This document shows, one piece after another, positions 15,858 through 38,546 of a stretch of 64,000 nt of DNA. The DNA is taken from NCBI GenBank assembly GCA_905480645.1, contig CAJQRC010000026.1, forward strand, positions 1-64,000. Reading direction: 5' to 3'. Each line of letters starts with the position of its first letter. The first letter of the stretch is position 1. The position numbers and the translations under genes were made by a program. The notes under the pieces are model-generated. The model was not told where the DNA came from, did not search any database, and saw only the letters and a list, made by a program, of their open reading frames with translations. Source of the stretch: an uncultured Tateyamaria sp. (lineage in GTDB: Bacteria; Pseudomonadota; Alphaproteobacteria; Rhodobacterales; Rhodobacteraceae).

Positions 15858-16265
15858 ATTTATTCTCCTCAGTGTACTTTTCAGCTCCAAAGTCGCAACG
15901 ATCATTCATACGCAACTATGTTTAAAATTTGACTTTTCTTCGGCATAGTCCGGCCGATTACGGCAAACAATTGCAAAACTTCATTATGGCAAGTCAACAC
16001 AAACCCTTAGAGACTGCAAGGATACCTTTTGATAAACACACATCCATCAACACCACAAATTTGGAACGACTTCATACATAGTTATTCTGATCATAACTTG
16101 GCATACATGTAGTAAAGTAAACTTGTGATATTGAATGTTAAACCGAATGCATTGAGACACCGTTTTTAAAATGAAATAAAAACTTTCATTTTAGTTCTAT
16201 CACCACATCGAGTTACGCAATAAATAGATGAAACAAAATTTACTTAAAAACAAATAAGGGAAAGT
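15858..16265. promoter_or_regulatory. Divergent intergenic region
   Basis: About 400 AT-rich bases separate the importer operon (leftward) and the secreted protein (rightward). Both promoters must lie here. I see no gene, tRNA or clear large palindrome. Confidence 0.3.
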
Positions 16266-18056: not shown

Positions 18057-18581
18057 ATGACCAAGGAAACGAAACCAACAAACTTAACACGCAGAGCCCT
18101 TTTGGGTAGAGCTGCCGCTGCCGGTTCTCTGGCAGTAATTGGTGGCGGTTTTATAGCGGCCCCAAATGCGTCTTGGGCGTTAACAGTTAACGTTATCTCA
18201 AGCCACCAAATGGCTACCATTTTTCAAATGGCGAGAGATATTTATCCTCACGATCAGATTGGTGACGAGTATTATGTCATCGCGGTCAAAGGTTATGACA
18301 GTGACGGGACCAAAGATATGATCGCCGAGGGCGTTGCAGCGTTGGATGCATCCGCGAAAGCAGCTGGCTTCGCGGACTATCTAAGCGTCGGCTGGGAATC
18401 AGATCGCGTCAAGCTTTTAACAGCTATGGAAGATACGGGATTTTTTCAAACCATTCGAGGGGGTCTAGTAACCGGATTGTACAACCAAAAAGCGGTTTGG
18501 CCAATTTTTGGCTACGAAGGCGAGTCCTTTTCTAAAGGCGGGTACGTAGACCGCGGCTTCAATGACATCAACTGGTTATAA
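18057..18581 (+). CDS. Tat-signal small subunit of a GMC dehydrogenase
   Basis: This 174-residue protein has a twin-arginine leader: LTRRALLGRAAAAGSLAVIG, cleavage near NASWA. The rest resembles gluconate-2-dehydrogenase subunit 3/fructose-dehydrogenase small-subunit proteins (IFQMARDIYPHDQIGDEYYV, YNQKAVWPIFGYEGESF). These small subunits carry their flavoprotein partner through the Tat pathway. The GMC gene starts 15 bases downstream with its own GGGAGG site. No cytochrome c subunit is encoded next to them. Confidence 0.8.
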   Translation: MTKETKPTNLTRRALLGRAAAAGSLAVIGGGFIAAPNASWALTVNVISSHQMATIFQMARDIYPHDQIGDEYYVIAVKGYDSDGTKDMIAEGVAALDASAKAAGFADYLSVGWESDRVKLLTAMEDTGFFQTIRGGLVTGLYNQKAVWPIFGYEGESFSKGGYVDRGFNDINWL

Positions 18582-18595
18582 GGGAGGATAATCCA

Positions 18596-22696: not shown

Positions 22697-23467
22697 TTAA
22701 ATAGCTGCTAATTCCTGCTTTAAATCCCCCATTTCAGCCCCACCTGACATGAGCCTGCGCATTTCTTCATCGTTAATCTCTGAATTAGTGCCCGAACCAA
22801 TAGTTTGTCCAAGCGCGAGAAACGTGAAACGGTCCCCCACAAGCCTTGAGTGAATCTCGTTATGGGTAATAAATATTATGCCAATATCACCACGCGCACG
22901 GACTTTCTTAATCGTTTTTAACACGCCCATTTGCTGTTTTTGGCCAAGAGCAGAGGTTGGCTCATCAAGTATTAAAACTTTAGCACCAAAATATATTGCA
23001 CGCGCGATTGCCAACGTTTGGCGTTGCCCACCCGACATTGTTCCTACGGCTTGCGTGGGATCTGAGAAATCAATGCCGATTTTAAGCATTTCATCATGCG
23101 CAATTTGATTCATTTCATCCATACGCAAAGTACCGAACGAACCCTTCAGTTCTCGTCCCATAAAGAAATTTCGCGTAACACTGAGAAGCTGGTTTATAGC
23201 TAAGTCCTGATATACCGTACCTATGCCAGCGTCAGAAGCATCTCGAGGTGAACGGAATTTAACCGGTTTCCCCTCTATGTAAATTTTCCCCTTGGTAGGC
23301 TCATGAACGCCAGAAAGAGTTTTAATAAGAGTAGATTTGCCAGCCCCATTATCACCAAGAAGACAATGCACTTCGCCAGGGTAAACTTCCAGATCCACAC
23401 CACCAAGTGCAGTAAAAGGTCCAAAACGTTTAACAAGTCCCTCTACACGGAGATAGGGATCTGACAT
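22697..23467 (-). CDS. Sugar ABC importer ATP-binding protein
   Basis: This 256-residue ATPase of the CUT2 (ribose/fructose/inositol) class is a single-domain version like FrcA. It shows Walker A GDNGAGKSTLIK, signature TMSGGQRQTLAIA, Walker B VLILDEPTSALGQKQ and the switch His in FITHNEIHS. CUT2 ATPases are often two-domain fusions; this one is not. It is the last gene of the leftward iol-like operon. Confidence 0.85.
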   Translation of the reverse strand: MSDPYLRVEGLVKRFGPFTALGGVDLEVYPGEVHCLLGDNGAGKSTLIKTLSGVHEPTKGKIYIEGKPVKFRSPRDASDAGIGTVYQDLAINQLLSVTRNFFMGRELKGSFGTLRMDEMNQIAHDEMLKIGIDFSDPTQAVGTMSGGQRQTLAIARAIYFGAKVLILDEPTSALGQKQQMGVLKTIKKVRARGDIGIIFITHNEIHSRLVGDRFTFLALGQTIGSGTNSEINDEEMRRLMSGGAEMGDLKQELAAI

Positions 23468-23468
23468 A

Positions 23469-24581
23469 TCAAATTCCTCCCGTTATTCGTTTGCGGATAC
23501 GTTCATTCGCAAACACTGCCGCAAGAAGGATCGCGCCAAGAAATACACGGAACCAAGCGCCGTCAATAGCTGGAATAAAAAATACTGCATTCGCTACAAG
23601 ACCCACTGTTATAGCACCAAAAACAACTCCAATGATGGAGCCAAATCCACCTGTCATCAAGGTCCCACCAACAACAGCGATGGCTATTGCAAACAACTCC
23701 ATTAGATTCCCCTTAGCCGCGTCAGAAGTATTAGTGTCAAAGACCTGACAAGCAGCAAACATCGTAGCGCAGAAAGCGGTGAACATAAATAAAGTAACTT
23801 TAACCCGATTAACTGGTACCCCGTTCGCGCGTGCGGCCTCTTTATTATCACCTGTTGCGAAAATCCAATTCCCAAATTGAGTACGACTTAATATGAAATA
23901 CGCAACAGCAGAAATAATCAACCACCACAAGAAACGCGCATCGAACCCGTCCACCCATTGAGCGCCCTTACGGTTTAAATTACCTCCAAGCATAAACCAA
24001 AGGTCATAAAACCAACCAAAAACGTCACCACCAAGGAGATTAGCAAACCAACTTTCCTCCTTATAATCTGGAAGACCAGAGATCTGCGTAGACTTATTAA
24101 TCAATCGAAAGCTGACTTCCGTAACACCGCGCAAAAAGAACAGGAATGCGAGGGTCACAATGAAACTTGAAAGACCGGACCGCACCACCACTGTACCGAT
24201 AAGCCATCCAAATATTAAAGTCATTGCCAGTGTGAAAATAAAGGCCGTAAAGGGTGTTGCTTCACCCATACCAAAGGGCAATCCCCATTTCAGCATCATA
24301 GACATTGCCATACCGGCAAATCCAATCATGGAGCCTATGGAAAGGTCAAACTCACCAGCTATCATCAGCACTGCCGCACCAGTGGCGATTATCCCATATT
24401 GAGCGATAATTGCTATATTGTTTTTCAGCCCTAAAGCGTTGAACGATTTACCTTCAGACGCGAATGAGAGTGCCACGATAATAATCAACATTACCGTAAA
24501 CGACCCAATTTCAGGTCGCCTCAGTAATTTTTGGAGTGCAGTCTCCTGCTTCAGCCGTCCGGCCTCATTTTGGTCAGCCAT
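23469..24581 (-). CDS. Sugar ABC importer permease
   Basis: This 370-residue CUT2 permease has about ten hydrophobic segments and the family motif IAGEFDLSIGSMIGFAGM. It has an extra loop near residues 165-215 compared with RbsC. The gene lies one base from the ATPase gene and about 80 bases from the binding-protein gene. Confidence 0.85.
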   Translation of the reverse strand: MADQNEAGRLKQETALQKLLRRPEIGSFTVMLIIIVALSFASEGKSFNALGLKNNIAIIAQYGIIATGAAVLMIAGEFDLSIGSMIGFAGMAMSMMLKWGLPFGMGEATPFTAFIFTLAMTLIFGWLIGTVVVRSGLSSFIVTLAFLFFLRGVTEVSFRLINKSTQISGLPDYKEESWFANLLGGDVFGWFYDLWFMLGGNLNRKGAQWVDGFDARFLWWLIISAVAYFILSRTQFGNWIFATGDNKEAARANGVPVNRVKVTLFMFTAFCATMFAACQVFDTNTSDAAKGNLMELFAIAIAVVGGTLMTGGFGSIIGVVFGAITVGLVANAVFFIPAIDGAWFRVFLGAILLAAVFANERIRKRITGGI

Positions 24582-24663
24582 TTTGTGCCCCCTAGATCAT
24601 TTGTGGCAGTGCGAAGTCAAACAGGCGGAAATTACCGCCTGCTATCTTTTTTAGAGTTTGGTC

Positions 24664-25578
24664 TTAGCGGTCAATTCCAGCAAGTGCTGAAACGTTGGCT
24701 GCGTTTGACGCATCAACAAAACCAGGGCCTGACGGAATGTTTGCGCCAGGCAAAAGACCTGCATGGTTGTTATAAAGATGCAGAACAATTACCGGCATGT
24801 AACCCTGTAAGCGCTGCTGCTGGTCGATTGTGAAAGCAGCACGGCCATCTTGGATCATGTCCATAACACCTGGGCTAAGGTCAAAACAAGCCAAATGCAC
24901 ATCCGCTCCAACAGCTTCAATCGCTTTTGTAGCAGCTTCACAGACGTGTGGTCCAACAGCCAAAACGCCATTAATGGATTCATCAGCCTGAAGCGCAGCA
25001 GCAGTCCGAGTTTCGATCTGTGTAGGGTCATTTGACACATCGATCATGTTCAGATCACCACCAATACCATCGAAATAACCAGTACACCGGTCAACAAGCG
25101 CAGTATTGAATGACTCTTGGTTCAGGCATAAGCCATTAGTTACGCCCTCAGCAGCAGCACGCTGCCCAGCTTTTTCACCGGCAAGGCGCTCTGGTTGACC
25201 AACGTGCATTAGCGCGCCAAGCTCAGCAGATGATTCTAAACCAGAGTTGATTGTGATTACTGGCACGCCATCACTTACAGCAGCCTTAATTGCTGGGCCG
25301 AGCGCAGCAGCGTCTGGTAAGGACACAATGATTCCATCAGGCTGTGTTGCAGCAGCAGCTTCAATTAACTTTGCCATCGCAGCCATGTCGCCAGAAACAT
25401 CAAAGTTATACTCGAGCGTTGCACCCACATGCTTAGCGGCATCACGCCCACCTTTTTCAACAACCGGCCAAAATGGGTCTGTGCCCTGTGTGTGTGTAAT
25501 CATGACATAACGTTCTTCAGCCAGTGCTGCACCGGCTACGATTGTGGCTGCAACCGCCGCAAATAGTACTTTCTTCAT
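24664..25578 (-). CDS. Sugar ABC importer periplasmic binding protein
   Basis: This 304-residue CUT2 binding protein has a Sec signal (MKKVLFAAVAATIVAGAALA) and the sequence RYVMITHTQGTDPFWPVVEK, then DGIIVSLPDA. The ATG at 25578 is set by GGGAGGAAACC upstream; the longer frame is not supported. The ligand is probably a cyclitol or sugar, given iolD and iolE in the same operon. Confidence 0.88.
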   Translation of the reverse strand: MKKVLFAAVAATIVAGAALAEERYVMITHTQGTDPFWPVVEKGGRDAAKHVGATLEYNFDVSGDMAAMAKLIEAAAATQPDGIIVSLPDAAALGPAIKAAVSDGVPVITINSGLESSAELGALMHVGQPERLAGEKAGQRAAAEGVTNGLCLNQESFNTALVDRCTGYFDGIGGDLNMIDVSNDPTQIETRTAAALQADESINGVLAVGPHVCEAATKAIEAVGADVHLACFDLSPGVMDMIQDGRAAFTIDQQQRLQGYMPVIVLHLYNNHAGLLPGANIPSGPGFVDASNAANVSALAGIDR

Positions 25579-25625
25579 GGTTTCCTCCCATAGAGTGGTG
25601 TCCGGCGCACCATTAAAATCCGGAA

Positions 25626-25659
25626 GCCTTTTAAGGCCCATTTCCTCATCATTGAGGAA
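25626..25659. promoter_or_regulatory. Two short hairpins before the binding-protein gene
   Basis: GCCTT-TT-AAGGC (25626-25637) and TTCCTCA-TCAT-TGAGGAA (25642-25659) lie in the 120-base gap between the SDR gene and the binding-protein gene. They could stabilise or attenuate the mRNA, which would fit the usual excess of binding protein, or be operator sites. Confidence 0.4.
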
Positions 25660-25699
25660 TTCTGAGATATACAGGGCGTACCTGTTACTAATTTTTCTA

Positions 25700-26515
25700 T
25701 CAAGGCACCAACTTTGCAGTCGGCGTTGACGGTTGACTGTCACAACCACCCCAAACAGATTGATCAAAATGCACAACTGATCCAGTCAACATACCACTGT
25801 CTTTTGATGCCATCCATAAGACTGCCTTAGCAACTTCTTGCGGGTCCAGCAGTCGCCCAAATGGCAGCAGAGCTGCTTGATTATCGATAAAGTTTGGGTC
25901 ACCAGACTCAGCCTCTTGGATCTTACGCTCATGGTCAGAATTCATCCATCCAATGTCTAACTGATTGACGTGAATTCGGTTACGCATCAACGCATAGCCC
26001 GCATGTCGAGTCAACGTGGAAAGCGCACCTTTTGACGTTGCATAAGGCGCAAGAAAGGGTTGGCCAACTTGACTGGAAACTGATCCAATATTTACAATCC
26101 GTCCTTCGATCCCCTCGCGCTCCATTATCTTTACAGCATCCTGAATCAGAAAAAATGGCGCACGTGTATTTACTGCAATCATTTCGTCAAACAATTCTGG
26201 AGTGGTGTTTAACAGGTTACCGCGATCAGTAAAGCCTGCTGCATTAACAAGAATGTCAATACGTCCGAAAAGCTTATCTGTTTGCTTCATAATTCCACGG
26301 ACATCCGCCATTTCAGCTAAGTTGGCGGCTATCATATGTACCGGAACACTCGTGGCTTTGGTAATTTCACTCGCCTTCGCTTGCCCTTTTTTAAAATCCC
26401 TGCCAACTATCACGATACCGGCGGCCCCCGCCTCGGCAAATAGCCTTGCTACAGCAGCGCCTAGGCCCTGTGTTGCACCTGTGATGACAGCAATTTTACC
26501 CTCTATGCGGTTCAC
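25700..26515 (-). CDS. Short-chain dehydrogenase/reductase
   Basis: This 271-residue classical SDR has TGATQGLG in the nucleotide site (about 13-20), NAAG (about 91), and the catalytic Ser (SVSSQVGQPF) and YATSK. The start is a GTG overlapping the iolE stop. In the cyclitol operon it probably oxidises a polyol or inosose intermediate with NAD. The exact substrate is not readable. Confidence 0.85.
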   Translation of the reverse strand: MNRIEGKIAVITGATQGLGAAVARLFAEAGAAGIVIVGRDFKKGQAKASEITKATSVPVHMIAANLAEMADVRGIMKQTDKLFGRIDILVNAAGFTDRGNLLNTTPELFDEMIAVNTRAPFFLIQDAVKIMEREGIEGRIVNIGSVSSQVGQPFLAPYATSKGALSTLTRHAGYALMRNRIHVNQLDIGWMNSDHERKIQEAESGDPNFIDNQAALLPFGRLLDPQEVAKAVLWMASKDSGMLTGSVVHFDQSVWGGCDSQPSTPTAKLVP

Positions 26516-27408
26516 CCGATCACCTCATAACCAGCTAAATCCATCACACGCTTTAGCTCACGTCGTCCTTTTATAGCCATATCCAGAGGAGGATTGATGA
26601 TGGGATCTTGTTCAGCTTCGATGACAAACCAGCCCTCATATTGTTTAGAAGCTAGGGCTTTTACAATCATTTCAAAGTCGAGCGAACCATCGCCAGGCAC
26701 TGTGAACGCTCCTTTAATGACCGCATCAAGAAAACTATCATGAGTTCGGTCCAGCCCATCAAAAACCGATTTGCGAACATCTTTTGTATGAACGTGAGAT
26801 ATTCGTTTATGGTGATTTTCAATAACCCTGAGGTTATTTCCTCCCGCAAAAGCCATATGGCCGGTATCAAAAAGTAATGGTACGGACGAATGCTGCATAA
26901 AAGAATTCAACTCTATTTCAGTCTCAACCACGGCCCCCATGTGATGATGATAACTAAGCGGCATACCTTCGCCCGCACACCAATCTGAAAAATCTGAAAT
27001 CTTTCGCGCATACACAGCCATTTCAGCCTCATTCAACTTTGGTTTTTTTTCCAGTGGCGTGTTACGTTCTCCCTGAACAGACTTCGCAGTTTCGCCATAA
27101 ACAATGCAGGGAGCATTGGCTGATTTGAAAAATGCAAGTTGCTGTGCGATGCGCTCTTTTTCAAACTCGATATCATCAGTCAGAAGAAGACCCGAAAACC
27201 AACCACCACAAACAGACATACTGTGTTGACGCAGAATAGGGCCAAGTTCATCCATTTTCATCGGAAATCGCCTGCCGGTTTCCATACCCGTTAGACCTGC
27301 CACGGACGCTTGGCGCAAACACTCATCAAGACTTACATCGTCAGAAAGCTCAGCTAAATCATCATTCCACCAAGCAATGGGCGCAATTCCAAGTTGAGCT
27401 TTCAGCAT
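26512..27408 (-). CDS. iolE: Myo-inosose-2 dehydratase (IolE type)
   Basis: This 298-residue TIM-barrel protein of the AP-endonuclease-2/xylose-isomerase superfamily opens LGIAPIAWWNDDLAELSDD, the typical start of IolE, and continues with ETGRRFP, YHHHMGAVVET, LFDTGHMAFAGGN, HVHTKDVR and GDGSLDF. IolE removes water from scyllo-inosose. The ATG at 27408 is chosen because it matches the family start and lies five bases after iolD. It is co-operonic with iolD. Confidence 0.88.
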   Translation of the reverse strand: MLKAQLGIAPIAWWNDDLAELSDDVSLDECLRQASVAGLTGMETGRRFPMKMDELGPILRQHSMSVCGGWFSGLLLTDDIEFEKERIAQQLAFFKSANAPCIVYGETAKSVQGERNTPLEKKPKLNEAEMAVYARKISDFSDWCAGEGMPLSYHHHMGAVVETEIELNSFMQHSSVPLLFDTGHMAFAGGNNLRVIENHHKRISHVHTKDVRKSVFDGLDRTHDSFLDAVIKGAFTVPGDGSLDFEMIVKALASKQYEGWFVIEAEQDPIINPPLDMAIKGRRELKRVMDLAGYEVIG

Positions 27409-27412
27409 AAAT

Positions 27413-29272
27413 TTAAATTCCTCTTCGCTGTTTGCTACGAAACTTTTCCTGAACTTCTCGCGCGTCCCGGACACTCTTACGCTCGTTAACCTCAGGGACG
27501 CCGACATACCAGTCAGCACCGCCAGGCGTCCAAGAGTAAGCATCAGAATTAATGCTTATAACTGTCGTGCAGTCAGTAGTTTGCGCCCATTCCATCGCCA
27601 ACTTAAGATCATCAAGATTATCGCAATGACGGGCCTTAGCCCCCATTGACTCAGCGTGCTTGGCAAAATCAACATGCAGCGGGTTATTTTTGTTCAAGAC
27701 GCGTGAATCTTTAAGAAGATTATTGAAGCCAGGCACACCCATACCCGTTTGGAGACGGTTGATAACACCATAACCACCGTTATCACAGACCACGACAATC
27801 ATTTTATGTCCCGATAAAACAGACGAATAAATATCAGAATTCATAAGCATATATGAGCCATCACCAACCATAACAATTGGCACACCATCACCGCCTTTGG
27901 CCATCGCGTGTCCCCAGCCGCCAGCAATCTCATAACCCATGCAAGAAAAGCCAAATTCACAATCAAAAGTGTTCGGTGCTTTCACACGCCAGTTTTTTAC
28001 AGTCTCTCCTGGAAGTCCACCAGCGGCAGTAACCATCGTATCCTTCGCAGTAGCTGCGCTATTCACAACCGCAATAACCTGAGAATAGCTGGGAACGGCA
28101 ACATCAGTAGCCGCTTGTAAAGAATCCAACACGGCATTCCATTTAGCATACAGTTCCTGCGCCTCTTTCATCCGTTTAGAGTCACAAATCCAGTCGCCTA
28201 ATGCTGTATCAAGCTCCGCAAGACATTCTAACGCATCTCCAATTACAGGAAGAGAGCGGTGCTTCCGAGCATCAAAACGAGCCGTATTAACATTTATGAA
28301 TTGAGTTTCACGATTGAATGTCGTCCAAGATCCAGTCGTGAAATCTTGCAAGCGTGTGCCGACTGCCAGAATTACATCAGCGCCTTCTGCCATCTCCTTA
28401 GCTGCATCGGTTCCTTCGATCCCAAGCGGACCAACATAAGCTTCGTGATTGTGCATTACGGCCCCCTTGCCAGCAATCGTTTCAGCCATAGGAATACCGT
28501 GAACTTTTGCAAATTTAGCTAAAGCTGCCCCTGCTCCAGAGTAGCGCACACCTCCACCCGAAATAATTAACGGTTTTTTAGACGTTTTAAGAAGTGTTAT
28601 TGCTGCCTTAATCTGATCACGATCCGGGCGCGGGCGCGGTATCTTCCAAATATTTTCCTCAAAAAATTCAACAGGATAATCATAGGCAACTTCCTGTATG
28701 TCCTGTGGCAGACTAATGAAGGCTGGACCACAGTCCGCAGGGTCGAGCATAGTAGCCACCGCTTGTGGAAGAGACGAAATAATTTGAGCTGGGTGAACAA
28801 TTCGGTCCCAATATCTGGATACAGCCCGAAAACTGTCATTAACTGTGGTTGACGGTTCTCCAAAATGTTCAACTTGCTGCAATACCGGATCAGGAAGTCG
28901 GTTCACATAGGTGTCGCCGGACAAAAGTAAAACTGGTAGGCGATTCGCATGTGCCACCCCTGCGGCCGTGACCATATTAGTAGCACCAGGCCCAACTGAG
29001 GTTGTAGCAACCATTATTTGTCGACGAAGCTTCGCCTTACTAAAACCTATAGCAGCTAAAGCCATAGACTGTTCGTTTTGACCTCGCCAAGTTGGCAACA
29101 CATCTTGCACCTGCTCAAGCGCTTCAGAAATGCAAGTCACGTTACCATGACCAAAAATACCAAATACTCCAGCAAATAGCGGTACACGATCACCATCAAT
29201 TTCAGTGTATTGATTAATAAGAAAGCGCACCAGCGCCTGCCCCACCGTCAACCTGATTGTACCTTCGGTCAT
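27413..29272 (-). CDS. iolD: 3D-trihydroxycyclohexane-dione hydrolase (IolD)
   Basis: This 619-residue ThDP enzyme closely follows IolD: IRLTVGQALVRFLINQY, GVFGIFGHGNVTCISEALEQ, WRGQNEQSMALAAIGFSK, TSVGPGATNMVTAAGVAHAN and the ThDP site GDGSYMLMNSDIYSSVLSG with the DNGGYGVINRLQ end. IolD opens the inositol-derived ring to 5-deoxyglucuronate. It is the first gene of the leftward operon, right behind the shared palindrome. The next canonical steps (IolB, IolC) are not in the window. Confidence 0.92.
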   Translation of the reverse strand: MTEGTIRLTVGQALVRFLINQYTEIDGDRVPLFAGVFGIFGHGNVTCISEALEQVQDVLPTWRGQNEQSMALAAIGFSKAKLRRQIMVATTSVGPGATNMVTAAGVAHANRLPVLLLSGDTYVNRLPDPVLQQVEHFGEPSTTVNDSFRAVSRYWDRIVHPAQIISSLPQAVATMLDPADCGPAFISLPQDIQEVAYDYPVEFFEENIWKIPRPRPDRDQIKAAITLLKTSKKPLIISGGGVRYSGAGAALAKFAKVHGIPMAETIAGKGAVMHNHEAYVGPLGIEGTDAAKEMAEGADVILAVGTRLQDFTTGSWTTFNRETQFINVNTARFDARKHRSLPVIGDALECLAELDTALGDWICDSKRMKEAQELYAKWNAVLDSLQAATDVAVPSYSQVIAVVNSAATAKDTMVTAAGGLPGETVKNWRVKAPNTFDCEFGFSCMGYEIAGGWGHAMAKGGDGVPIVMVGDGSYMLMNSDIYSSVLSGHKMIVVVCDNGGYGVINRLQTGMGVPGFNNLLKDSRVLNKNNPLHVDFAKHAESMGAKARHCDNLDDLKLAMEWAQTTDCTTVISINSDAYSWTPGGADWYVGVPEVNERKSVRDAREVQEKFRSKQRRGI

Positions 29273-29334
29273 ACCGCCTGTTCCCTTTTAATAAGATTCT
29301 TGAGCGTTGAAGCAATGATTATTGACTTTTAAAT

Positions 29335-29360
29335 TTTTCTGCAACAATTATTGCAGAAAA
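29335..29360. promoter_or_regulatory. Palindromic operator between iolD and iolG-like genes
   Basis: TTTTCTGCAA-CAATTA-TTGCAGAAAA is a perfect 10-6-10 inverted repeat, 16 bases before the rightward ATG and about 63 bases before the leftward iolD start. It is placed to control both operons. The RpiR-family protein at 34752 is the obvious candidate binder. Confidence 0.7.
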
Positions 29361-29375
29361 GATAGAGGTATATTG

Positions 29376-30383
29376 ATGGTGAGAATTGCTGTCCTTGGTT
29401 GTGGTCGGATAGGGAGGATGCACGCAGCAAATATTGCAAACCACCCGACTGCTGAGCTTGCCACCATTTATGATATTCAAACAGCCGCAGCAAAAGACAT
29501 AGCTGAGAAATTAAATGCTTCAGTGGCAGATAGTGCCAAAGCGATTTTTATCGATCCAAGTATTGATGCAGTTCTAATCGCCACAGCCACTCCGACGCAT
29601 GCTGAATACATTGAGGCCGCTGTTAAAGCAGGAAAACCAGTACTCTGCGAAAAACCAATCGACCTGTCCTTGGAGCGTGTAAACTCTTGCATGAAAGCGA
29701 TTGCAGGTAGTTCTGTTCCCGTTCAGATAGGGTTTAACCGTCGATTTGATCCAGGCCATAAAGCAGCGCGCAATGCTGTGATAGCCGGTGAAATAGGTGA
29801 TTTACATCAAGTTATCATTACATCACGTGATCCCGGCATGCCCCACCGTAATTATTGGTTAGAAGCCGGAGGTATTTTTCGAGACATGGTGATACATGAT
29901 TTTGATCTTGCGCGGTTTATGCTCCGAGAAGAACCAATAGAGGTTTTTTCTATTGGAGGCCGTTTAATTGACCCAAATCTAATGGAAGAACTTCAAGATT
30001 ACGACTCAACCATGACCATTATGCGGACAGCCACAGGGCGCCAATGTCATATCAATACATCACGCGCCTCAAATTATGGATATGATCAACGGGTTGAACT
30101 CTTGGGTGACAAGGGAATGGTCCAAAGCCAAAACAAAAAACCTTATGAATTACGCAAATTTGGCAGTACTGCCGTCGAAAGTACAAGTCTATATCTGGAG
30201 TTTTTTATTGAACGATATAAAGAAGCTTTCAATGAAGAATTAAACGCATTTATTAACTCTGTTGAAAAAAACGAGCCCGTTCCAGTGAATTTCGAGGACG
30301 GGCGCCGCGCTCTAATTCTCGCTGAGGCAGCGATAAAGTCGGCTGTAGAGGGCCGTTTCATAAAAATAGACGAGGTGAACTAA
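29376..30383 (+). CDS. iolG: Inositol 2-dehydrogenase-like (IolG)
   Basis: This 335-residue Gfo/Idh/MocA oxidoreductase has the NAD motif VLGCGRIGRMHAANI, the CEKPID strand (catalytic Lys), and GGIFRDMVIHDFDLARFM with the catalytic Asp/His pair. Its features fit myo-inositol 2-dehydrogenases, the entry step of inositol catabolism, and IolD/IolE lie divergently. The ATG at 29376 follows AGAGGT. It opens the rightward operon and overlaps the next gene by one base. Confidence 0.8.
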   Translation: MVRIAVLGCGRIGRMHAANIANHPTAELATIYDIQTAAAKDIAEKLNASVADSAKAIFIDPSIDAVLIATATPTHAEYIEAAVKAGKPVLCEKPIDLSLERVNSCMKAIAGSSVPVQIGFNRRFDPGHKAARNAVIAGEIGDLHQVIITSRDPGMPHRNYWLEAGGIFRDMVIHDFDLARFMLREEPIEVFSIGGRLIDPNLMEELQDYDSTMTIMRTATGRQCHINTSRASNYGYDQRVELLGDKGMVQSQNKKPYELRKFGSTAVESTSLYLEFFIERYKEAFNEELNAFINSVEKNEPVPVNFEDGRRALILAEAAIKSAVEGRFIKIDEVN

Positions 30384-31816
30384 TGTATCGAGAATTCGGT
30401 CTTTTCATAGCAGGTAAGTGGGAATCAAGTACTGAGACATCAGCCACGGTCGTCAGCCCAGTTACAGAAAAAGTACTGGGAGATGTCGCAACTGCCACAA
30501 TTTCTGATACAAAACGTGCTATTGATGCCGCCGAACTGGCGCTTAAAAAACTGCGTGAAATGGGTGGTTACGCTCGCGCCGACGCTCTTCACAAGATTGC
30601 AGACGAAATGGCCAAATGCGCAAATAAAGCTGCGCGCATGATATCAACTGAAACTGGGAAGCCTTTAGTACAAGCGGAACGCGAATGGGCTCTGTCAATC
30701 GACCAATTCCGTTGGTATGCAGAAGAGGCGCGGCGCATATATGGCCGTGTAATAGAAAGCCGTGTTCCGAAAGGTCGTCTTGAGGTCACCAAAGAAGCCA
30801 TTGGAATCGTTGGTGCTTTTACTGCCTGGAACTTCCCAGCCGCTCTTCCTTCGCGCAAAATCGCTCCGGCCATCGCCGCGGGCTGTTCCGTCATCTTGCG
30901 GCCCTCCTCTCAGACCCCTGGCGTCGCAATGATTATAGTAAACTGCATTCGTACAGGCGCTCTACCAGATGGGGCCGTAAACCTAGTGATTGGTTCGACC
31001 ACGAATACTTATAATCCGATTATGTCAGATCCTCGTGTCCGTAAGGTTTCTCTAACTGGGTCCACACGTGTTGGCCAGCAGATGATCCGTGATGCAGCGG
31101 ATACAGTGAAGAAAGTATCAATGGAATTAGGGGGCAACGCACCCTGTATTATCTATGACGACGCAAATCTTGAAGCAGCACTAGACGCCTGTATCCCATC
31201 TAAATTTGGTAATGCGGGTCAAGTATGTGTGACGCCAGACAGATTTTTCGTGCACAATAGCCTGCATGACGAGTTTGTTTCGGAATTTGCAAAGCGTGCT
31301 GCAACTTTGATCCTTGGCGATGGACTAAACAATAATACAGAGATGGGACCGTTGATTAGTTCTGGTCGCATGGGCGAAGTGGATGCAATTGTTCAGGAAG
31401 CTATCAGCGCTGGCGCCAAATTAGAAGTTGGTGGTAAACCTGCAGCCCAGTTCAAAACAGGCCACTTTTATGAGCCCACTGTATTAAGCAGAGTTACTGA
31501 TGATATGCGCGTATTTAACCAAGAAAACTTCGGACCTGTTGCTGCAATCAGTAGTTTTTCCGAAGAAGATGAGGTGCTGGTGCGTGCGAATAACTCTTTT
31601 ATGGGTCTATCAGCTTACGCCTTTACGCGCAGCCCAGAGCGCGCACGCCGCACTATCGCAACACTTAAATCTGGAATGGTAGGGATTAATTCTTTTGCGC
31701 TGGCTGCATCAGAAGCGCCGTTCGGCGGCACCAATTACTCCGGCCTTGGTCGTGAAGGTGGCACTGAAGGTATCGAAGATTATCTCGATACAAAACTATC
31801 GCAAATTGTATTCTGA
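30383..31816 (+). CDS. NAD(P)-dependent semialdehyde dehydrogenase
   Basis: This 477-residue aldehyde dehydrogenase is of the succinate-semialdehyde type rather than the methylmalonate-semialdehyde (IolA) type. Visible are FTAWNFPAALPSRKIAPA, the catalytic Glu in MELGGNAP and the Cys in NAGQVCVTPDR (about 285), plus the C-terminal FGGTNYSGLGREGG. It probably oxidises the semialdehyde released by the neighbouring aldolase. Confidence 0.85.
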   Translation: MYREFGLFIAGKWESSTETSATVVSPVTEKVLGDVATATISDTKRAIDAAELALKKLREMGGYARADALHKIADEMAKCANKAARMISTETGKPLVQAEREWALSIDQFRWYAEEARRIYGRVIESRVPKGRLEVTKEAIGIVGAFTAWNFPAALPSRKIAPAIAAGCSVILRPSSQTPGVAMIIVNCIRTGALPDGAVNLVIGSTTNTYNPIMSDPRVRKVSLTGSTRVGQQMIRDAADTVKKVSMELGGNAPCIIYDDANLEAALDACIPSKFGNAGQVCVTPDRFFVHNSLHDEFVSEFAKRAATLILGDGLNNNTEMGPLISSGRMGEVDAIVQEAISAGAKLEVGGKPAAQFKTGHFYEPTVLSRVTDDMRVFNQENFGPVAAISSFSEEDEVLVRANNSFMGLSAYAFTRSPERARRTIATLKSGMVGINSFALAASEAPFGGTNYSGLGREGGTEGIEDYLDTKLSQIVF

Positions 31817-31827
31817 AAGGGCCTTCA

Positions 31828-32637
31828 ATGCAAAAGAACAAGCTGAAGAAACTCTGGGCTGCGGGCCAGCCTACAATGAACGGTTGGTGCTCCATAGGCA
31901 ACCCTTTCACAGCCGAGATTATGGCCGCTCAAGGTTATGACAGCTTGACGATAGATATTCAGCATGGTGCTCTTGATTATGGGGATGCTTTACCAATGCT
32001 GCAAGCGATGAAGGCCTCCGATGCAACTTTAATGGCGAGAGTGCCATGGCGCGACCCAAGCTATATTATGAAAGCGCTAGACGCTGGTGCAATGGGAATC
32101 ATTTGCCCTATGATTAACAATCGATCTGAAGCGGAGGAGTTTGTTTCATACATGCGTTATCCACCGCATGGACAACGTAGCTTTGGACCAACACGCGCTG
32201 CTGTAGCTATCCCGGGCTATAGTGTGGCAGCAAATGAAGAAGTGTTGGCGTTGGCAATGATCGAAACTGCTGATGGAGTAGAAAATCTTGATGAGATTGC
32301 GGCTACACCGGGTTTGGACGGAATTTACGTAGGTCCCGCAGATCTCACGCTAGGCACTCAGCACGGCCGCTTATCTCCTGGCTTTGATAGAACTGAACCT
32401 GAAATGATCGTTTTGATCAAACAGATTGCCCAGATATGTAAAACAAACAAAATTGTTGCCTGCCTGCATTGTGGAACACCGGAGTATGCCGCTGAATCAA
32501 TCGGATGGGGGTATCAGCTTACGACTGTCAGCGGTGATACACGTCTTCTAGCTAGTGCAGCTTCAAACTCTGTTGCTGAGTGGAGAAATTTGGTTAGCCG
32601 GAACAAACAAAGCAGTAATACCGAAGAGGTTTATTGA
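31828..32637 (+). CDS. HpcH/HpaI-family aldolase
   Basis: This 269-residue class II pyruvate aldolase has LTIDIQHGALDYGD, ARVPWRDPSYIMKALDAGAM, GIICPMINNRSEAEE, MIETADGVENLDEIA and YVGPADLTLG, the metal- and pyruvate-binding pattern of the HpcH/HpaI family. It would split a 4-hydroxy-2-oxo acid to pyruvate (or a homologue) and an aldehyde. Its place in an inositol-type operon is unusual. The substrate is inferred, not known. Confidence 0.85.
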   Translation: MQKNKLKKLWAAGQPTMNGWCSIGNPFTAEIMAAQGYDSLTIDIQHGALDYGDALPMLQAMKASDATLMARVPWRDPSYIMKALDAGAMGIICPMINNRSEAEEFVSYMRYPPHGQRSFGPTRAAVAIPGYSVAANEEVLALAMIETADGVENLDEIAATPGLDGIYVGPADLTLGTQHGRLSPGFDRTEPEMIVLIKQIAQICKTNKIVACLHCGTPEYAAESIGWGYQLTTVSGDTRLLASAASNSVAEWRNLVSRNKQSSNTEEVY

Positions 32638-33602
32638 TGACCCATCTGCTAGTTGCCGGCAAACTGCACCCAGCTGGAGTTACATTTCTTGAGACACTAA
32701 AATCCAAGGGCACCACAGTCACTTACATAGAAGAGATCAACGAAGAAAGTTACTTCGAACATATCGTAACAGCAGATGCACTAGTTATCCGCACTCAGCC
32801 ATTGTCAGCAGCTACAATCAAACATGCTAAACGCCTTAAAATAGTTTCTCGTCATGGAGTGGGCTATGACGCAATAGATCTAGAGGCACTAAATTTACGT
32901 GGCATCCCATTAGCGATTGTAGGCGATGTGAACTCAGTCTCAGTTGCTGAGCAGGCAATGATGCAACTATTAGCCTGTGCCAAACAAGCGATACGTGCTG
33001 ACCGCGCTGTACGGGACCCCTCAAAATGGGGTTGGAGGAATAATTTAGAACAACGGGAAATCTCACATCGTAACCTTTTAATAATTGGTTTTGGACGCGC
33101 CGGACAAAAACTTGCCAGAATGGCAAGAGGTTTTGAAATGAATGTCCGTGCCTATGATCCATATTTGGAATCTAAATGCTGGCCGGACAGCACCGTAGCG
33201 CCAGTAAAGTCCCTTACTGACGGATTAACTTGGGCAGACTGCCTTTCACTCCATGTTCCGCGCAGTAAAAAACCACTACTGGACGCAGCAGCTTTCAAAA
33301 AAATGAAACCCGGAATGATTATTGCTAATACTTCACGTGGAGGAGTCATGTGTGAAACGGCTCTCGCGTCCGCCTTATCTGATGGTATTGTTCATGCCGC
33401 AGGACTGGATGTCTTTGACATAGAGCCACCAACAGAAACTCTGGTTCTCACTGAACATGACAACATTATATTATCGCCTCATATCGCGGGGCTGACGGAA
33501 GAGGCGAGTAAAAGGATGGCCATTTCTTCCATTAAAAATGCAATGGACGCTCTAGACGGTTCACTTGATCCTGACTTAATCGTAAATAAAGCGAATATAT
33601 AA
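32637..33602 (+). CDS. D-2-hydroxyacid dehydrogenase
   Basis: This protein of about 321 residues is of the phosphoglycerate-dehydrogenase-like family. It has LKIVSRHGVGYDAIDL, the NAD motif LLIIGFGRAGQKLARMARG, NTSRGGV (catalytic Arg region), LDVFDIEPPTE (Glu) and LSPHIAG (His). The ATG at 32637 overlaps the aldolase stop by one base. It could reduce a 2-oxo acid or oxidise a hydroxy acid in the pathway. Confidence 0.85.
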   Translation: MTHLLVAGKLHPAGVTFLETLKSKGTTVTYIEEINEESYFEHIVTADALVIRTQPLSAATIKHAKRLKIVSRHGVGYDAIDLEALNLRGIPLAIVGDVNSVSVAEQAMMQLLACAKQAIRADRAVRDPSKWGWRNNLEQREISHRNLLIIGFGRAGQKLARMARGFEMNVRAYDPYLESKCWPDSTVAPVKSLTDGLTWADCLSLHVPRSKKPLLDAAAFKKMKPGMIIANTSRGGVMCETALASALSDGIVHAAGLDVFDIEPPTETLVLTEHDNIILSPHIAGLTEEASKRMAISSIKNAMDALDGSLDPDLIVNKANI

Positions 33603-34720
33603 TGAATGAAAAAAAGAAGCTTTCTATTGGCTTAATCGGGTCTGGCTTTATGGGTAAAGCCCATGTGTTCGGCTTTGCAACGGCGCAAAAAGTCTTTGAC
33701 TTACCAATGCAGATCGACCTGCACACTGTAGCTGATATCGATGATAAAATTGCCTCTCGTGCCGCTCACGAATTTGGGTTTAGAAACGCCACATCTAACT
33801 GGAAGACAATGATTGCCAATCCAGAAATTGACATTATTGATATCACAGCTCCGAATGCACTTCATAAAGAAATGGCACTTGCAGCGATTGCCGCTGGCAA
33901 ACATGTCTATTGTGAAAAGCCACTTGCAGGAATGGCCAGAGACGCCAAAGAAATGGCAGACGCCGCAGAAGCATTAGGCGTAAAAACGCAAGTCGGCTTC
34001 AATTATATTTGCAATCCAATGCTTGGACTAGCTCGTGAAATGATCACAAGCGGAGAATTGGGCGAAATTCGCAGCTACCGAGGCGTGCACGCCGAAGATT
34101 ATATGGCTGCCGCAGATGGACCAATTACTTTTCGCCACGATCCCGCTGGCGGTGGTGCGTTGGCGGACCTTGGCAGCCACACTTTAGCAACAGCTGAATT
34201 TTTACTTGGTAATGTTCGAAAAGTCATGGGCGATTGTGTAACAGCTATCTCCAACCGACCTGACGGTAAAGGCGGGCAGCAAAATGTCAAAGTTGATGAC
34301 ATCGGACGCGCTTTCCTGCGATTTGAGAACGGTGCCAGTGGGTCAATTGAAGGAAACTGGATTGCGACTGGGCGAAAGATGCAGCATGATTTTGAAATCT
34401 ACGGTTCAAAAGGTGCTCTTTTTTTCAGTCAAGAAAGATTTAACGAATTACATTTCTATTCAAGTGCAGACGCACCTGGCCGCCAAGGTTTCCGCCGAAT
34501 TGAGGCCTCGCCAGAGCATGCACCTTATGGAAAATTTTGCGTGGCTCCAGGTCATCAGATTGGTTTCAATGATCTGAAAGCCATTGAGGTTTCCAATTTT
34601 ATCAATGCGATTGCCGGACAGGCGCCAGAACAGTTTTCATTTAGAAAAGGTGCGCGAATTCAGCATCTAGTTGAAAGTATCCAAGAGTCCTCAGCCTCTG
34701 AAAGCTGGGTAAACGTTTAA
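33602..34720 (+). CDS. Gfo/Idh/MocA-family oxidoreductase
   Basis: This 372-residue second Gfo/Idh protein has LIGSGFMGKAHVFGFATA, CEKPLAGMARDA, FNYICNPMLG and GGGALADLGSHTLATAEFLL. It differs from the first (29376) and is longer. Family members act on sugars or cyclitols. It overlaps the previous gene by one base, so it belongs to the same operon. Confidence 0.85.
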   Translation: MNEKKKLSIGLIGSGFMGKAHVFGFATAQKVFDLPMQIDLHTVADIDDKIASRAAHEFGFRNATSNWKTMIANPEIDIIDITAPNALHKEMALAAIAAGKHVYCEKPLAGMARDAKEMADAAEALGVKTQVGFNYICNPMLGLAREMITSGELGEIRSYRGVHAEDYMAAADGPITFRHDPAGGGALADLGSHTLATAEFLLGNVRKVMGDCVTAISNRPDGKGGQQNVKVDDIGRAFLRFENGASGSIEGNWIATGRKMQHDFEIYGSKGALFFSQERFNELHFYSSADAPGRQGFRRIEASPEHAPYGKFCVAPGHQIGFNDLKAIEVSNFINAIAGQAPEQFSFRKGARIQHLVESIQESSASESWVNV

Positions 34721-34751
34721 ACATTGTGAGATAGTGATCAGGTAAAGCCAA

Positions 34752-35630
34752 ATGACGCAAGATTTACCACCTCAGGATTATGAAAGCCTAATACGCCTAA
34801 TCCACGACCGTCACCACAATATGAGCAAAACACATCAACAAATCGCAATATATCTCACACAGAGCCCTAACGACATCGCTGTTCGTTCAGTCAATGCTAT
34901 TGCACAAAGCTGCAACATTCATGCTTCTAGTTTTGTGCGATTTGCGCAGTCGTTGGGGTATGACGGCTTTAAAAGTCTGCAAATGTTATTTCAACAACGT
35001 CTGACTACAGCAGCCCCAGGATTTGAAGCCCGGACACATGCTCTAAAACAAGAATTGAAGTCTCGCGATGACCTCTCGGGAGCAGATTTACTGCGTGATT
35101 TAGTAGTAAGCGATGCTGCATCAGTACAAAGCCTGATTGACGAGATTAATGTTACCGATCTGGCAAAAGCGGCAGAAATTATTAGTACGGCAGAAACGGT
35201 CTTTCTATTGGGTCAATTGCGATCAGCACCAATTATCGAATTAATTCGGTATCTCCTGACGATGGCGGGAAAAAAATGCGTAATGCTTGATCCCAGCGGA
35301 GGACTTGCGACCCATATTGCACGCACAATCGGACCAAAAGATGTTTTACTAGCCGTTTCTTTCCGTTTTTACGCAAACGAAGTAGTCTCAATCGTAGAAG
35401 AAGTTGCAGCGTTAAACAGGGTAATCGTTGCAGTGTCAGACAGTACATTATCCCCACTGGCAAAATCAGCACATATTCTTTTTGCCACACAAGAACATCC
35501 TGGACCTCTCTCCCGCTCTTTGACAGCTCCAATTTGTCTGGCACAAGCAATCGCATTAGCGGTTGCATCGCGGATACAAAACAATCCAAACATGCCTGCT
35601 ATTCCATCAGTAACAAGTACAAATAAATGA
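34752..35630 (+). CDS. MurR/RpiR-family transcriptional regulator
   Basis: This 292-residue protein has an N-terminal HTH_6 (residues about 1-80, VRSVNAIAQSCNIHASSFVR, FAQSLGYDGFKSLQ) and a C-terminal SIS sugar-isomerase-like ligand domain (about 125-265, ETVFLLGQLRSAPIIELIRY). RpiR proteins commonly control inositol and related genes in alphaproteobacteria. It ends the rightward operon and is the natural candidate for the palindrome at 29335. Confidence 0.88.
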   Translation: MTQDLPPQDYESLIRLIHDRHHNMSKTHQQIAIYLTQSPNDIAVRSVNAIAQSCNIHASSFVRFAQSLGYDGFKSLQMLFQQRLTTAAPGFEARTHALKQELKSRDDLSGADLLRDLVVSDAASVQSLIDEINVTDLAKAAEIISTAETVFLLGQLRSAPIIELIRYLLTMAGKKCVMLDPSGGLATHIARTIGPKDVLLAVSFRFYANEVVSIVEEVAALNRVIVAVSDSTLSPLAKSAHILFATQEHPGPLSRSLTAPICLAQAIALAVASRIQNNPNMPAIPSVTSTNK

Positions 35631-36885: not shown

Positions 36886-37644
36886 TCAGGGCAGAGTCTT
36901 CATCCAATCTAAAGTAGAATTTGTATCCCCAATTGGTTTATACTCCGCTCCCAGAGGGGCATCCCAGCCCATTTCCACAATCGCATTGAAAACCGCAGCA
37001 TAATTAACCTCTCCTTGATCTGGTGGACCACGATCGGGGACAGAAGCAAATTGAATATGGCCGATATCCGATTGTAGCTGATGAAGACGAGTGATCAAAT
37101 CGCCTTCAGTTCGAGCAACATGATAACAATCAAACATCAGTTTGATGTTTGGTGCACCAACTTCGGCAATAATGGCTATCGCTTGATCTGTGGTCTGCAA
37201 GAAATAATCAGGGGCATCATGACGGTTAAGGGGCTCAATCAGTATATTCCGTTGAGCCGCGGTCGCACAAGCGTAGCGTAGATTACCCACAAAGGTTTTA
37301 TGCGCTGACTCACCATTTCCAAATCCTGCCATTACATGAATTGCTGCTGCATCAATCCCTTCAGCGTATATCACTGCTTCATTAATAGCATCACGAGCTT
37401 CATTTTCACGGCCCGGCAATGCTGCAAGTCCGTTATCACCATGCTCAAAATCACCACGTCGCGTGTTCAAACCCAACATAGGAAGACCAGTTTCAGTCAG
37501 TGCAGTGCGAACTTCTTTAATCGGTACTTCGTAGGGCCAGTGACACTCAACCGCATCAAATCCAGCAGCCTTTGCGGCACGAATAGCATCTGGTAAAACA
37601 AGATCATTCCACAGAAATCCTAAATTAGCAGATAACTTTATCAC
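36886..37644 (-). CDS. Hydroxypyruvate isomerase family, OtnI-like
   Basis: This 252-residue TIM barrel of the Hyi/OtnI type opens SANLGFLWNDLVLPDAIRAA and contains EPLNRHDAPDYFLQTTDQA, LMFDCYHVARTEGD and GEVNYAAVFNAI, the metal and acid residues of this family. OtnI isomerises 2-oxo-tetronate in threonate/erythronate catabolism. It overlaps by four bases with the LtnD-like gene, which supports that role over hydroxypyruvate isomerase. Confidence 0.75.
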   Translation of the reverse strand: MIKLSANLGFLWNDLVLPDAIRAAKAAGFDAVECHWPYEVPIKEVRTALTETGLPMLGLNTRRGDFEHGDNGLAALPGRENEARDAINEAVIYAEGIDAAAIHVMAGFGNGESAHKTFVGNLRYACATAAQRNILIEPLNRHDAPDYFLQTTDQAIAIIAEVGAPNIKLMFDCYHVARTEGDLITRLHQLQSDIGHIQFASVPDRGPPDQGEVNYAAVFNAIVEMGWDAPLGAEYKPIGDTNSTLDWMKTLP

Positions 37645-38546
37645 AAAATCTCTCCCGGAAGGGACAAACCGGCATTATGCGCATACACCTTTGCCACCGC
37701 AGAATCGTCCTCACCCCCTAATCCCATCTCAACCGCCTCTTCAAACTGCTTAAGTGCAGCAGCGGCTAACGGCGTACCTAAATTAGCTGCTCTAGCAATA
37801 TCAAGCACGATACCAAGGTCCTTAGGCCAAATGTTTACTTGACTATGCGGGCTATAATCTCCCGATACTATGTGAGGTGCCCTATTTTCCAACATCCAGC
37901 TTGATCCAGCGCACTTGCTAATCACTTCCAAAAACATTTCTGGAGCAACACCTTGTGTCATGCCAAAGGTCAAAGCTTCCGCCATAGTCGCAATGTGAAC
38001 TCCTGCCAATAATTGATTGACAGCCTTCATCGCCGACCCCGGGCCTGCAGTTTTACCAATTTTAAATATTGTCTCAGCGGTGGCATTCAAAACTGCACTT
38101 GCTGCGGCAAACGCTTCACTTGTGCCCGATGCCATAATTGACAATTGTCCAGCTGCTGCTTTGATAGATCCACCAGAAATTGGAGCATCCAAGTAGAATA
38201 CACCGAACATAGAACAACGTTCTTCCATATCACGTGCGAAATCGGGAGGCATAGTGGCGCAAGCTACGATCACAGACCCTTTCCGCATCTGTGCCACAAT
38301 CCCATGAGTTCCAAAAAGAACATCTTCTGTTTGTCGTGCATTTAAGACAACAACCATTACAGCATCTATAGTGCTTATTATCTCAAACAACTTTTCGCCC
38401 TGTCCACCTTCATTTTGAAGACGGCGCATTGGCTCTGGAGAAACATCATAACCATAGGTCTTATGTCCTGCACGCACACAGGAAAGAGCCATGCCATAGC
38501 CCATTGATCCCAGCCCTACGACAGCTGTATTGTGTTCCTTTTTCAT
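37641..38546 (-). CDS. NAD-dependent 3-hydroxyacid dehydrogenase, LtnD-like
   Basis: This 301-residue beta-hydroxyacid dehydrogenase has the NAD motif VVGLGSMGYGMALSCVRAGH, LDAPISGGSIKAAAGQL, the catalytic Lys in GPGSAMKAVNQLLAG and FGMTQGVAPEMFLEVI. It resembles L-threonate dehydrogenase (LtnD/YgbJ) and GarR. It is first in a two-gene operon with the OtnI-like gene. The kinase and aldolase of the pathway (OtnK, OtnC) are not nearby. Confidence 0.75.
   Translation of the reverse strand: MKKEHNTAVVGLGSMGYGMALSCVRAGHKTYGYDVSPEPMRRLQNEGGQGEKLFEIISTIDAVMVVVLNARQTEDVLFGTHGIVAQMRKGSVIVACATMPPDFARDMEERCSMFGVFYLDAPISGGSIKAAAGQLSIMASGTSEAFAAASAVLNATAETIFKIGKTAGPGSAMKAVNQLLAGVHIATMAEALTFGMTQGVAPEMFLEVISKCAGSSWMLENRAPHIVSGDYSPHSQVNIWPKDLGIVLDIARAANLGTPLAAAALKQFEEAVEMGLGGEDDSAVAKVYAHNAGLSLPGEIL

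Follow-up and report, generated by a model that had tools for sequence, protein, structure and literature searches.

In a 64,000-nucleotide stretch of DNA from an uncultured Tateyamaria sp. (contig CAJQRC010000026.1, positions 1 to 64,000; hereafter the window), we analyzed a 13-kb locus in which the inositol catabolism genes iolD, iolE and iolG stand beside an aldehyde dehydrogenase (ALDH), a HpcH/HpaI-type aldolase (HpcH) and a D-2-hydroxyacid dehydrogenase (HADH). The module that these genes form is real: its gene order recurs across bacterial orders and on plasmids, more than chance would allow, its hosts being alphaproteobacteria of sea and soil. Our preferred reading, to which we give about even odds (roughly 0.5), is that these genes make up a self-contained cassette for inositol catabolism whose lower branch is oxidative and uses no kinase. 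The module also occurs without IolB and IolC in a near-complete genome (G207, 99% complete) and in two isolates (G416 and G421).

Recurrence of the module and genomes without IolB and IolC

The 12 genes of the locus, recognized from the list of open reading frames (ORFs) and from NCBIfam and Pfam profile searches, lie in two divergent groups (Table 1). The leftward group consists of iolD, iolE, a short-chain dehydrogenase/reductase (SDR) and the periplasmic binding protein (SBP), permease and ATPase of an importer, and the rightward group of iolG, an ALDH resembling succinate-semialdehyde dehydrogenase (SSADH), HpcH, HADH, a second Gfo/Idh-family dehydrogenase (Gfo2) and an RpiR-type regulator; a palindrome occupies the gap of about 103 bases between iolD and iolG. 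All the families named in the first-pass annotation were confirmed, with IolD, IolE and IolG over their curated cut-offs and the importer genes in place, and its remark that iolB, iolC and iolA are missing from the 13 kb (22697–35630) agrees with the 12-gene set, which holds none of them. On the window contig, profile searches gave no iolC match, the single iolB match of the genome lies on another contig (C36), and the sole methylmalonate-semialdehyde dehydrogenase (MMSDH) match listed, which would indicate IolA, is the ALDH itself, whose 194 bits fall short of the 448.5-bit cut-off.

We looked for the same gene set elsewhere, as the first-pass annotation had advised, and found it. A scan of genomes for the aldolase provided the best 80 loci, and 56 of them have iolD in the stretch fetched, a proportion that should not be taken as a population frequency. 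Gene presence was read from the best blastp match in the fetched stretch, some of which end early. Among the 56 iolD loci, HADH was found in 55, ALDH and SDR in 51 each, iolE and RpiR in 46 each, Gfo2 in 45 and iolG in 40, and ALDH, HpcH and HADH are contiguous in 49; iolB is present in the stretch of only one and iolC in six. The core is kept, and transporters and side genes differ among loci. Plasmids of Paracoccus, Jiella, Acidiphilium, Qingshengfaniella and Rhizobium carry a divergent layout like that of the window with small losses, and a Shinella plasmid carries a rearranged form. Of nine plasmid regions opened, one was unannotated yet positive for the module by BLAST, and one had an unrelated context, a mandelate racemase-type case considered below.

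A quick tree was built from 90 IolD rows (frames of at least 560 codons), and in it the IolD of the module forms one clade (Shimodaira–Hasegawa-like approximate likelihood ratio test support 100, stem 0.57), from which only a SAR11-like family and the divergent L081 are excepted. This clade stands apart from the type found on C36 (5 rows) and from that of ordinary iolB-iolE-iolD-iolC clusters (7 rows), with the limit that the SAR11-like and ordinary sequences are both long-branched, as the program warned, and their places unsure. One subclade mixes Rhizobiaceae, Paracoccaceae and Thalassospiraceae, which together with the carriage on plasmids suggests horizontal transfer of the module. The tree also contains L113, a module contig from a metagenome-assembled genome labelled Formosa (Bacteroidota), whose IolD groups with that of Rhodobacteraceae MED-G08; its presence in that assembly is probably a binning error.

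To relate the module to the canonical genes, we assembled 54 module genomes: 50 from loci that have iolD, HpcH and HADH (the first 50 of 55, in order of similarity), G207, G015 and G349, and the Tateyamaria genome itself (G000); G070, being the genome of L157 (G426), was counted once. Left out were 12 genomes in which no iolD was seen beside HpcH, seven of them without IolB (G084, G289, G316, G131, G098, G375 and G102), and eight plasmid records, four with IolB, which are not whole genomes. Profile searches showed IolB to be absent from 5/54, and three of these five cases are convincing: G207, G416 and G421. The others were discounted: G390 is a small Formosa-labelled assembly with a Rhodobacteraceae-like contig, and in G349 iolE is truncated and the cluster lacks ALDH. 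IolC, checked in 17 genomes (13 of them from the set of 50), scored over its cut-off in 11, and below it in G390, G416, G421, G435, G436 and, narrowly, G386, which at 293 bits and with the gene adjoining iolB was counted as having IolC.

G207 is a SAR11-like genome of 1.2 Mb in one contig, with no IolB match and a single match to the IolC model of 87.5 bits (cut-off 300). Its cluster reads iolD, ALDH, HpcH, HADH, iolE, iolG, SBP, permease, ATPase, with IolD (808 bits), IolE (412) and IolG (357) all over cut-off. The isolates G416 (Komagataeibacter diospyri) and G421 (K. intermedius) likewise have no IolB match, and their best IolC matches reach 115.5 and 115.8 bits. Both carry RpiR, SDR, iolE, iolD, ALDH, HpcH, HADH and Gfo2; iolD is whole in K. 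diospyri and interrupted by a frameshift in the draft genome of K. intermedius, which also has iolG and, judged by sequence only, a major facilitator superfamily-type transporter nearby. Elsewhere in the genus, L140 (K. europaeus) and L158 (K. swingsii) show the aldolase with no other module gene in the stretch; the L140 aldolase, near cytochrome c and glucose-methanol-choline (GMC)-like oxidoreductase genes resembling those that flank iolG in K. intermedius, is perhaps a deletion remnant.

The family of G207 is probably SAR11, considering the size of the genome, a G+C content of about 31% and the size of the family. The aldolase occurs in 124 of its 297 genomes, and in 63 of the 128 high-quality ones. 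We opened 35 loci, namely G207 and 34 of the other 123 matches chosen for spread and length of contig, and found iolD, ALDH and HpcH together in 33 of them; iolB and iolC were in none of these 35 stretches. IolB was also absent from all three genomes of the family that were tested (G207, G098 and G375), of which G098 and G375 have no match to the aldolase. We put forward, tentatively and as somewhat short of an even bet, that a non-phosphorylative route not described before exists as a cassette transferable among alphaproteobacteria, and that many streamlined ocean bacteria, probably SAR11, have no other route for inositol.

The proposed lower branch

The substrate and every reaction after IolD are proposed here from gene content. 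The importer would take up an inositol, which IolG would oxidize to an inosose and IolE would dehydrate, after which IolD would open the ring. The product of IolD is 5-deoxyglucuronate, an aldehyde acid. From there, in place of IolB, IolC and IolJ, three steps would follow. The ALDH would oxidize the C1 aldehyde to 5-deoxyglucarate (2,3,4-trihydroxyadipate); an SSADH-like enzyme is well matched to an aldehyde whose carboxylate lies far from it. Oxidation at C2 by HADH (or by a Gfo/Idh protein) would then give 2-oxo-3,4-dihydroxyadipate, and HpcH would cleave this between C3 and C4 into hydroxypyruvate and malonate semialdehyde. Class II HpcH aldolases require a 2-oxo acid with a 4-hydroxyl, and oxidation at both C1 and C2 fits this requirement because the resulting acid has both groups. 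Malonate semialdehyde, probably the C3 end product common to this and the canonical route, would be converted to acetyl-CoA by IolA, and hydroxypyruvate to glycerate; HADH may alternatively serve in the reduction of hydroxypyruvate. The SDR, Gfo2 and the neighbours that change between loci (demethylase-like moc genes, PhyH, TIM-barrel isomerases) could feed in other inositols.

Since ALDH, HpcH and HADH score below all NCBIfam cut-offs shown, their families are known and their substrate assignments are left as proposals. For HpcH the best NCBIfam model is HpaI (TIGR02311, 152 bits against a cut-off of 369), and Pfam HpcH_HpaI (PF03328) matches at 107 bits. The class II aldolase fold and catalytic residues are present: H46, R71, S118, E146 and D172 are kept in 168/168 aligned relatives from module and non-module contexts. 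The nearest solved aldolases include SwHKA, the hydroxyketoacid aldolase of Sphingomonas wittichii (6r62, 179.6 bits), whose metal ligands (E/D) and active-site H are kept. SwHKA takes hydroxypyruvate and holds it as the bound donor in the crystal, with F210 credited with promoting its use (PMC10099721); a review counts 19 of 571 class II aldolases as tolerating hydroxypyruvate (PMC7610986).

Table 1. Features of the locus with their positions in the window
Feature	Position	Strand	Basis
CUT2-type ABC importer ATPase, single domain	22697..23467	-	ORF and NCBIfam
ABC importer permease	23469..24581	-	ORF and NCBIfam
SBP, inositol/rhizopine type	24664..25578	-	NF052284 (rhizopine-binding protein), 253 bits, below cut-off of 420
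SDR oxidoreductase, PRK06198 subfamily	25700..26515	-	374 bits, over cut-off of 240
iolE, inosose dehydratase	26512..27408	-	TIGR04379, 374 bits, over cut-off of 290
iolD, trihydroxycyclohexanedione (THcHDO) hydrolase, module-specific clade	27413..29272	-	TIGR04377, 811 bits, over cut-off of 715; tree
Candidate RpiR operator: perfect inverted repeat (10+10 bp) in the iolD-iolG gap	29335..29360	.	Repeat search
iolG, inositol 2-dehydrogenase	29376..30383	+	TIGR04380, 393 bits, over cut-off of 355
ALDH, SSADH-like; proposed 5-deoxyglucuronate dehydrogenase	30383..31816	+	Best NCBIfam SSADH (TIGR01780), 462 bits, below cut-off of 646
HpcH/HpaI class II aldolase; proposed 2-oxo-3,4-dihydroxyadipate aldolase	31828..32637	+	NCBIfam, Pfam, residues
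HADH; proposed C2 dehydrogenase or hydroxypyruvate reductase	32634..33602	+	Best NCBIfam phosphoglycerate dehydrogenase (PGDH), 234 bits, below cut-off of 454
Gfo2, Gfo/Idh/MocA dehydrogenase related to scyllo-inositol dehydrogenase	33602..34720	+	Pfam; 5ya8, 251 bits
RpiR-type regulator (HTH_6 and SIS)	34752..35630	+	Pfam

The starts of SBP (25578), iolE (27408) and iolG (29376) are probable ones, set where the family matches begin; the ORFs start earlier. HpcH/HADH and iolE/SDR overlap by four bases, and iolG/ALDH and HADH/Gfo2 by one. The nearest solved structure to the SBP is 4ru1 (172 bits), and the structures that match Gfo2 with scores above that of 5ya8 carry no stated function. The importer ATPase is 93–95% identical to copies adjoining the module in L105–L107. 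Importers 44–70% identical to that of the window stand beside HpcH, iolG, iolE and SDR in three alphaproteobacterial genomes of 1.4 Mb (L078, L079 and L080), in whose stretches ALDH, HADH and iolD were not found; in these genomes iolC and iolB are some 15 kb away.

Points against the proposal and competing explanations

Several observations weigh against the lower branch as proposed. The first concerns need: IolB is present in 49/54 module genomes, that of Tateyamaria included, which means that the majority of hosts have no need of the module at this step. In the Tateyamaria genome (3.07 Mb, 67 contigs, 99.85% complete), the search for iolB, iolC and iolA that the first-pass annotation had recommended found all three on C36. 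Profile searches place iolG, iolB, iolC and another iolD there, all over their cut-offs; positions 21268–30080 of C36 (7269–16081 of stretch L002) hold iolG, an aldolase gene classed as iolJ-like by sequence, iolB, iolC and iolD, with a Gfo/Idh gene, a TIM-barrel gene (IolE model, 178 bits against a cut-off of 290) and another Gfo/Idh gene divergent from them. An IolA/MMSDH-type gene (634 bits, cut-off 448.5) follows at C36:65411, 35 kb from the iolB/iolC locus. A genome lacking iolBCA is thereby ruled out, and the window locus is therefore a second, parallel inositol locus. The idea of an alternative lower route survives as the best reading by virtue of the other genomes that lack IolB and IolC, and not of its own genome; of the two findings that the first-pass annotation had said would tell against it, canonical iolBCA elsewhere under the same regulator and rightward genes dispensable for growth on inositol, the presence of iolBCA elsewhere is what we observed. 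The C36 locus resembles that of the window in having iolD and iolG over cut-off and a related Gfo/Idh protein (38% identity between Gfo2 and GfoA), and differs in having iolB and iolC, an IolD of another clade and another palindrome spacing. IolC of the C36 locus is short, and loci of this type show no iolD of their own in several Rhodobacterales stretches (L256, L258, L262, L266 and L267).

The coexistence with IolB would be well explained if the module served another cyclitol (chiro-, scyllo-, O-methyl or amino inositols, for instance pinitol or rhizopine), with an IolD subtype of its own producing a stereoisomer that IolB and IolC cannot use, hence the private lower branch. The separate IolD clade, the score of the SBP to the rhizopine model (below its cut-off) and the relation of Gfo2 to scyllo-inositol dehydrogenase are in line with this, as are an annotated MocE beside the module in Jiella and desaturase-family genes beside it in Rhizobium leguminosarum Vaf-108. 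We nevertheless consider this explanation unlikely. Genes of the moc type are rare (mocE in 2/56 and mocD-like in 2/56 iolD loci, a looser count adding mocE in L153), and G207 and the two Komagataeibacter isolates have no other IolB/IolC route. In two MED-G08-type genomes (L112, L114, L262 and L267), no IolD other than the module type was seen, no genome-wide iolD search having been made, and their iolB and iolC loci lack an iolD of their own. Finally, one Nioella genome holds ALDH-HpcH-HADH-Gfo2 away from iolD (L109) and an ordinary-type iolD elsewhere (L264); the module may thus act on what the ordinary IolD makes. As an observation apart, moc-like genes (MocE ferredoxin or desaturase-type) adjoin the module or the aldolase in L070, L073, L137, L146, L153, L155 and L177; such neighbours suggest O-methyl inositols as feeds.

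A second group of adverse points concerns the products of the aldolase. At the position of SwHKA F210 (mapped through the 6r62 alignment), 165/168 HpcH relatives have His, in and outside iol loci; the position therefore does not point to hydroxypyruvate, the donor is not settled by sequence, and the residue fails as a separator of iol-linked from other HpcH proteins. On three plasmids (H20–H22), HpcH relatives of 57–59% identity overlap an annotated mandelate racemase-type gene. Enzymes of the mandelate racemase type include sugar-acid dehydratases, so these neighbours suggest pyruvate-type cleavage among the kin of HpcH. The presence of pyruvate carboxylase in 5/56 iolD loci could also argue for a pyruvate product. 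The racemase-type neighbours and the pyruvate carboxylase genes speak for the cleavage to pyruvate and a semialdehyde suggested in the first-pass annotation, by which oxidation and dehydration would lead to 4-hydroxy-2-oxoadipate and HpcH would release pyruvate and malonate semialdehyde; the known HpaI substrate, going by the family name, is the C7 homologue of that acid. This variant needs a dehydratase, and the recurrent set contains none for it: IolE is the sole dehydratase seen among the recurrent genes, itself not found in 10/56 stretches. It also leaves the near-constant HADH without a clear role. We thus hold it to be improbable, cleavage to hydroxypyruvate and malonate semialdehyde fitting the genes better. 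Inside or beside the module, pyruvate carboxylase genes were noted in Paracoccus and Rhizobium daejeonense (L074, L075, L115, L118, L119, L120, L127 and L161).

The third group of adverse points consists of missing parts. ALDH is absent from 5/56 iolD loci, and in the G207 family a close HADH (at least 60% identity) follows HpcH in only 19/35 loci (L228 and L248, beyond these 19, have a homologue of 35–36% there, and a tally that takes in distant homologues elsewhere in the stretch reaches 22), so that the proposed route would need stand-ins for both. One could also suppose that the rightward genes are no lower branch but break down a different sugar acid, sharing only their regulation with an iolDEG set that is redundant. 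Among the 24 of the 80 loci without iolD in the stretch, two from Nioella (L109 and L110) indeed hold ALDH-HpcH-HADH-Gfo2 with no iolD in the 10-kb flanks; of the rest, five have HADH, Gfo2 or both, one has a distant HADH only, and 16 have no ALDH, HADH or Gfo2 in the stretch. G084, which has no IolB, carries ALDH-HpcH-HADH on a 16.8-kb contig without iolD, and canonical genes exist on C36. Yet the contiguous trio is kept beside iolD in several orders, and the size-constrained SAR11-like genomes retain iolD-ALDH-HpcH, G207 doing so without IolB, making this explanation hardly probable.

Regulation and flanking genes

The repeat between iolD and iolG is perfect in both arms; 0.01 such repeats would be expected even with up to three mismatches. 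In 22/68 module loci the motif TGCAA-N6-TTGCA stands no more than 700 bases from the iolD frame's 5' end, and all 68 loci (1.36 Mb) contain 62 copies, so it is concentrated at the iolD 5' end; copies also stand just before RpiR in some loci (for example L069 and L075). RpiR may act on the iolD-iolG palindrome. The C36 palindrome, TTGCAA-CCGG-TTGCAA, has a spacing two bases shorter, and the rhizobial IolR motif, reportedly GGAA-N6-TTCC, is absent from the window and from L002.

Outside the module, at 36886–38546 on the reverse strand, a TIM-barrel gene and a dehydrogenase gene were considered as its hydroxypyruvate enzymes and rejected on family scores and absence elsewhere. The dehydrogenase scores over the cut-off for L-threonate dehydrogenase and its partner best, below the cut-off, as 2-oxo-tetronate isomerase, which is probably what the pair is; tblastn over the fetched loci found no copy of the isomerase, and of the dehydrogenase just those in L176, L231 and L234. 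Upstream of the importer, at 18057–20167 on the forward strand, lie genes for a small exported-looking protein and a GMC oxidoreductase, by eye resembling gluconate 2-dehydrogenase subunits. Considered as kept companions of the module, they were rejected, giving one weak match only, in L140, by tblastn over the fetched loci.

Comparison with known systems

All the enzyme families involved are known, and their combination as a lower branch of inositol catabolism is probably new; we did not find the route described in the open-access full-text literature, subscription papers and preprints lying outside that coverage. If the proposal is correct, inositol users without IolB and IolC have been overlooked, among them perhaps much of a streamlined marine family, and hydroxypyruvate-type HpcH aldolases would gain a natural role. 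The genomes free of IolB and IolC make the question directly testable. In a 2022 survey, iolB, iolC, iolD and iolE serve as the genomic signature of inositol use, with three of the four required per cluster (PMC9430895). The window locus has only iolD and iolE, and clusters of this kind would be passed over by such a criterion.

Among solved aldolases, SwHKA is one of the closest to HpcH, with His in the module protein in place of its F210. Rhizopine (moc) catabolism shares with the module a MocB-like SBP (below cut-off here), and some module loci adjoin moc-like genes; near the window locus, no mocDEF O-demethylase gene was recognized by eye among ORFs of at least 150 amino acids at 16000–42000, a range in which no dedicated search was made. 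Classical moc catabolism is said, in a 1998 study, to feed the canonical inositol pathway. The Thermotoga route through 5-keto-L-gluconate (IolN/IolO) also avoids IolB and IolC and is not known to use IolE or IolD; against the IolO model, IolE of the window reaches only 25 bits. With the canonical myo-inositol pathway of the Bacillus subtilis type (iolG-E-D-B-C-J-A), the module has IolG, IolE and IolD in common and differs in having ALDH, HADH and HpcH for IolB, IolC and IolA, with no ATP-dependent step proposed. In its general plan, the proposed branch can be set beside the Weimberg/Dahms, glucarate/GarL and HpaI routes, which likewise oxidize their substrate, make a 2-oxo acid and split it with a pyruvate-type aldolase; unlike these, the branch would start from a ring-opened cyclitol, and no sugar-acid dehydratase was seen in the recurrent set.

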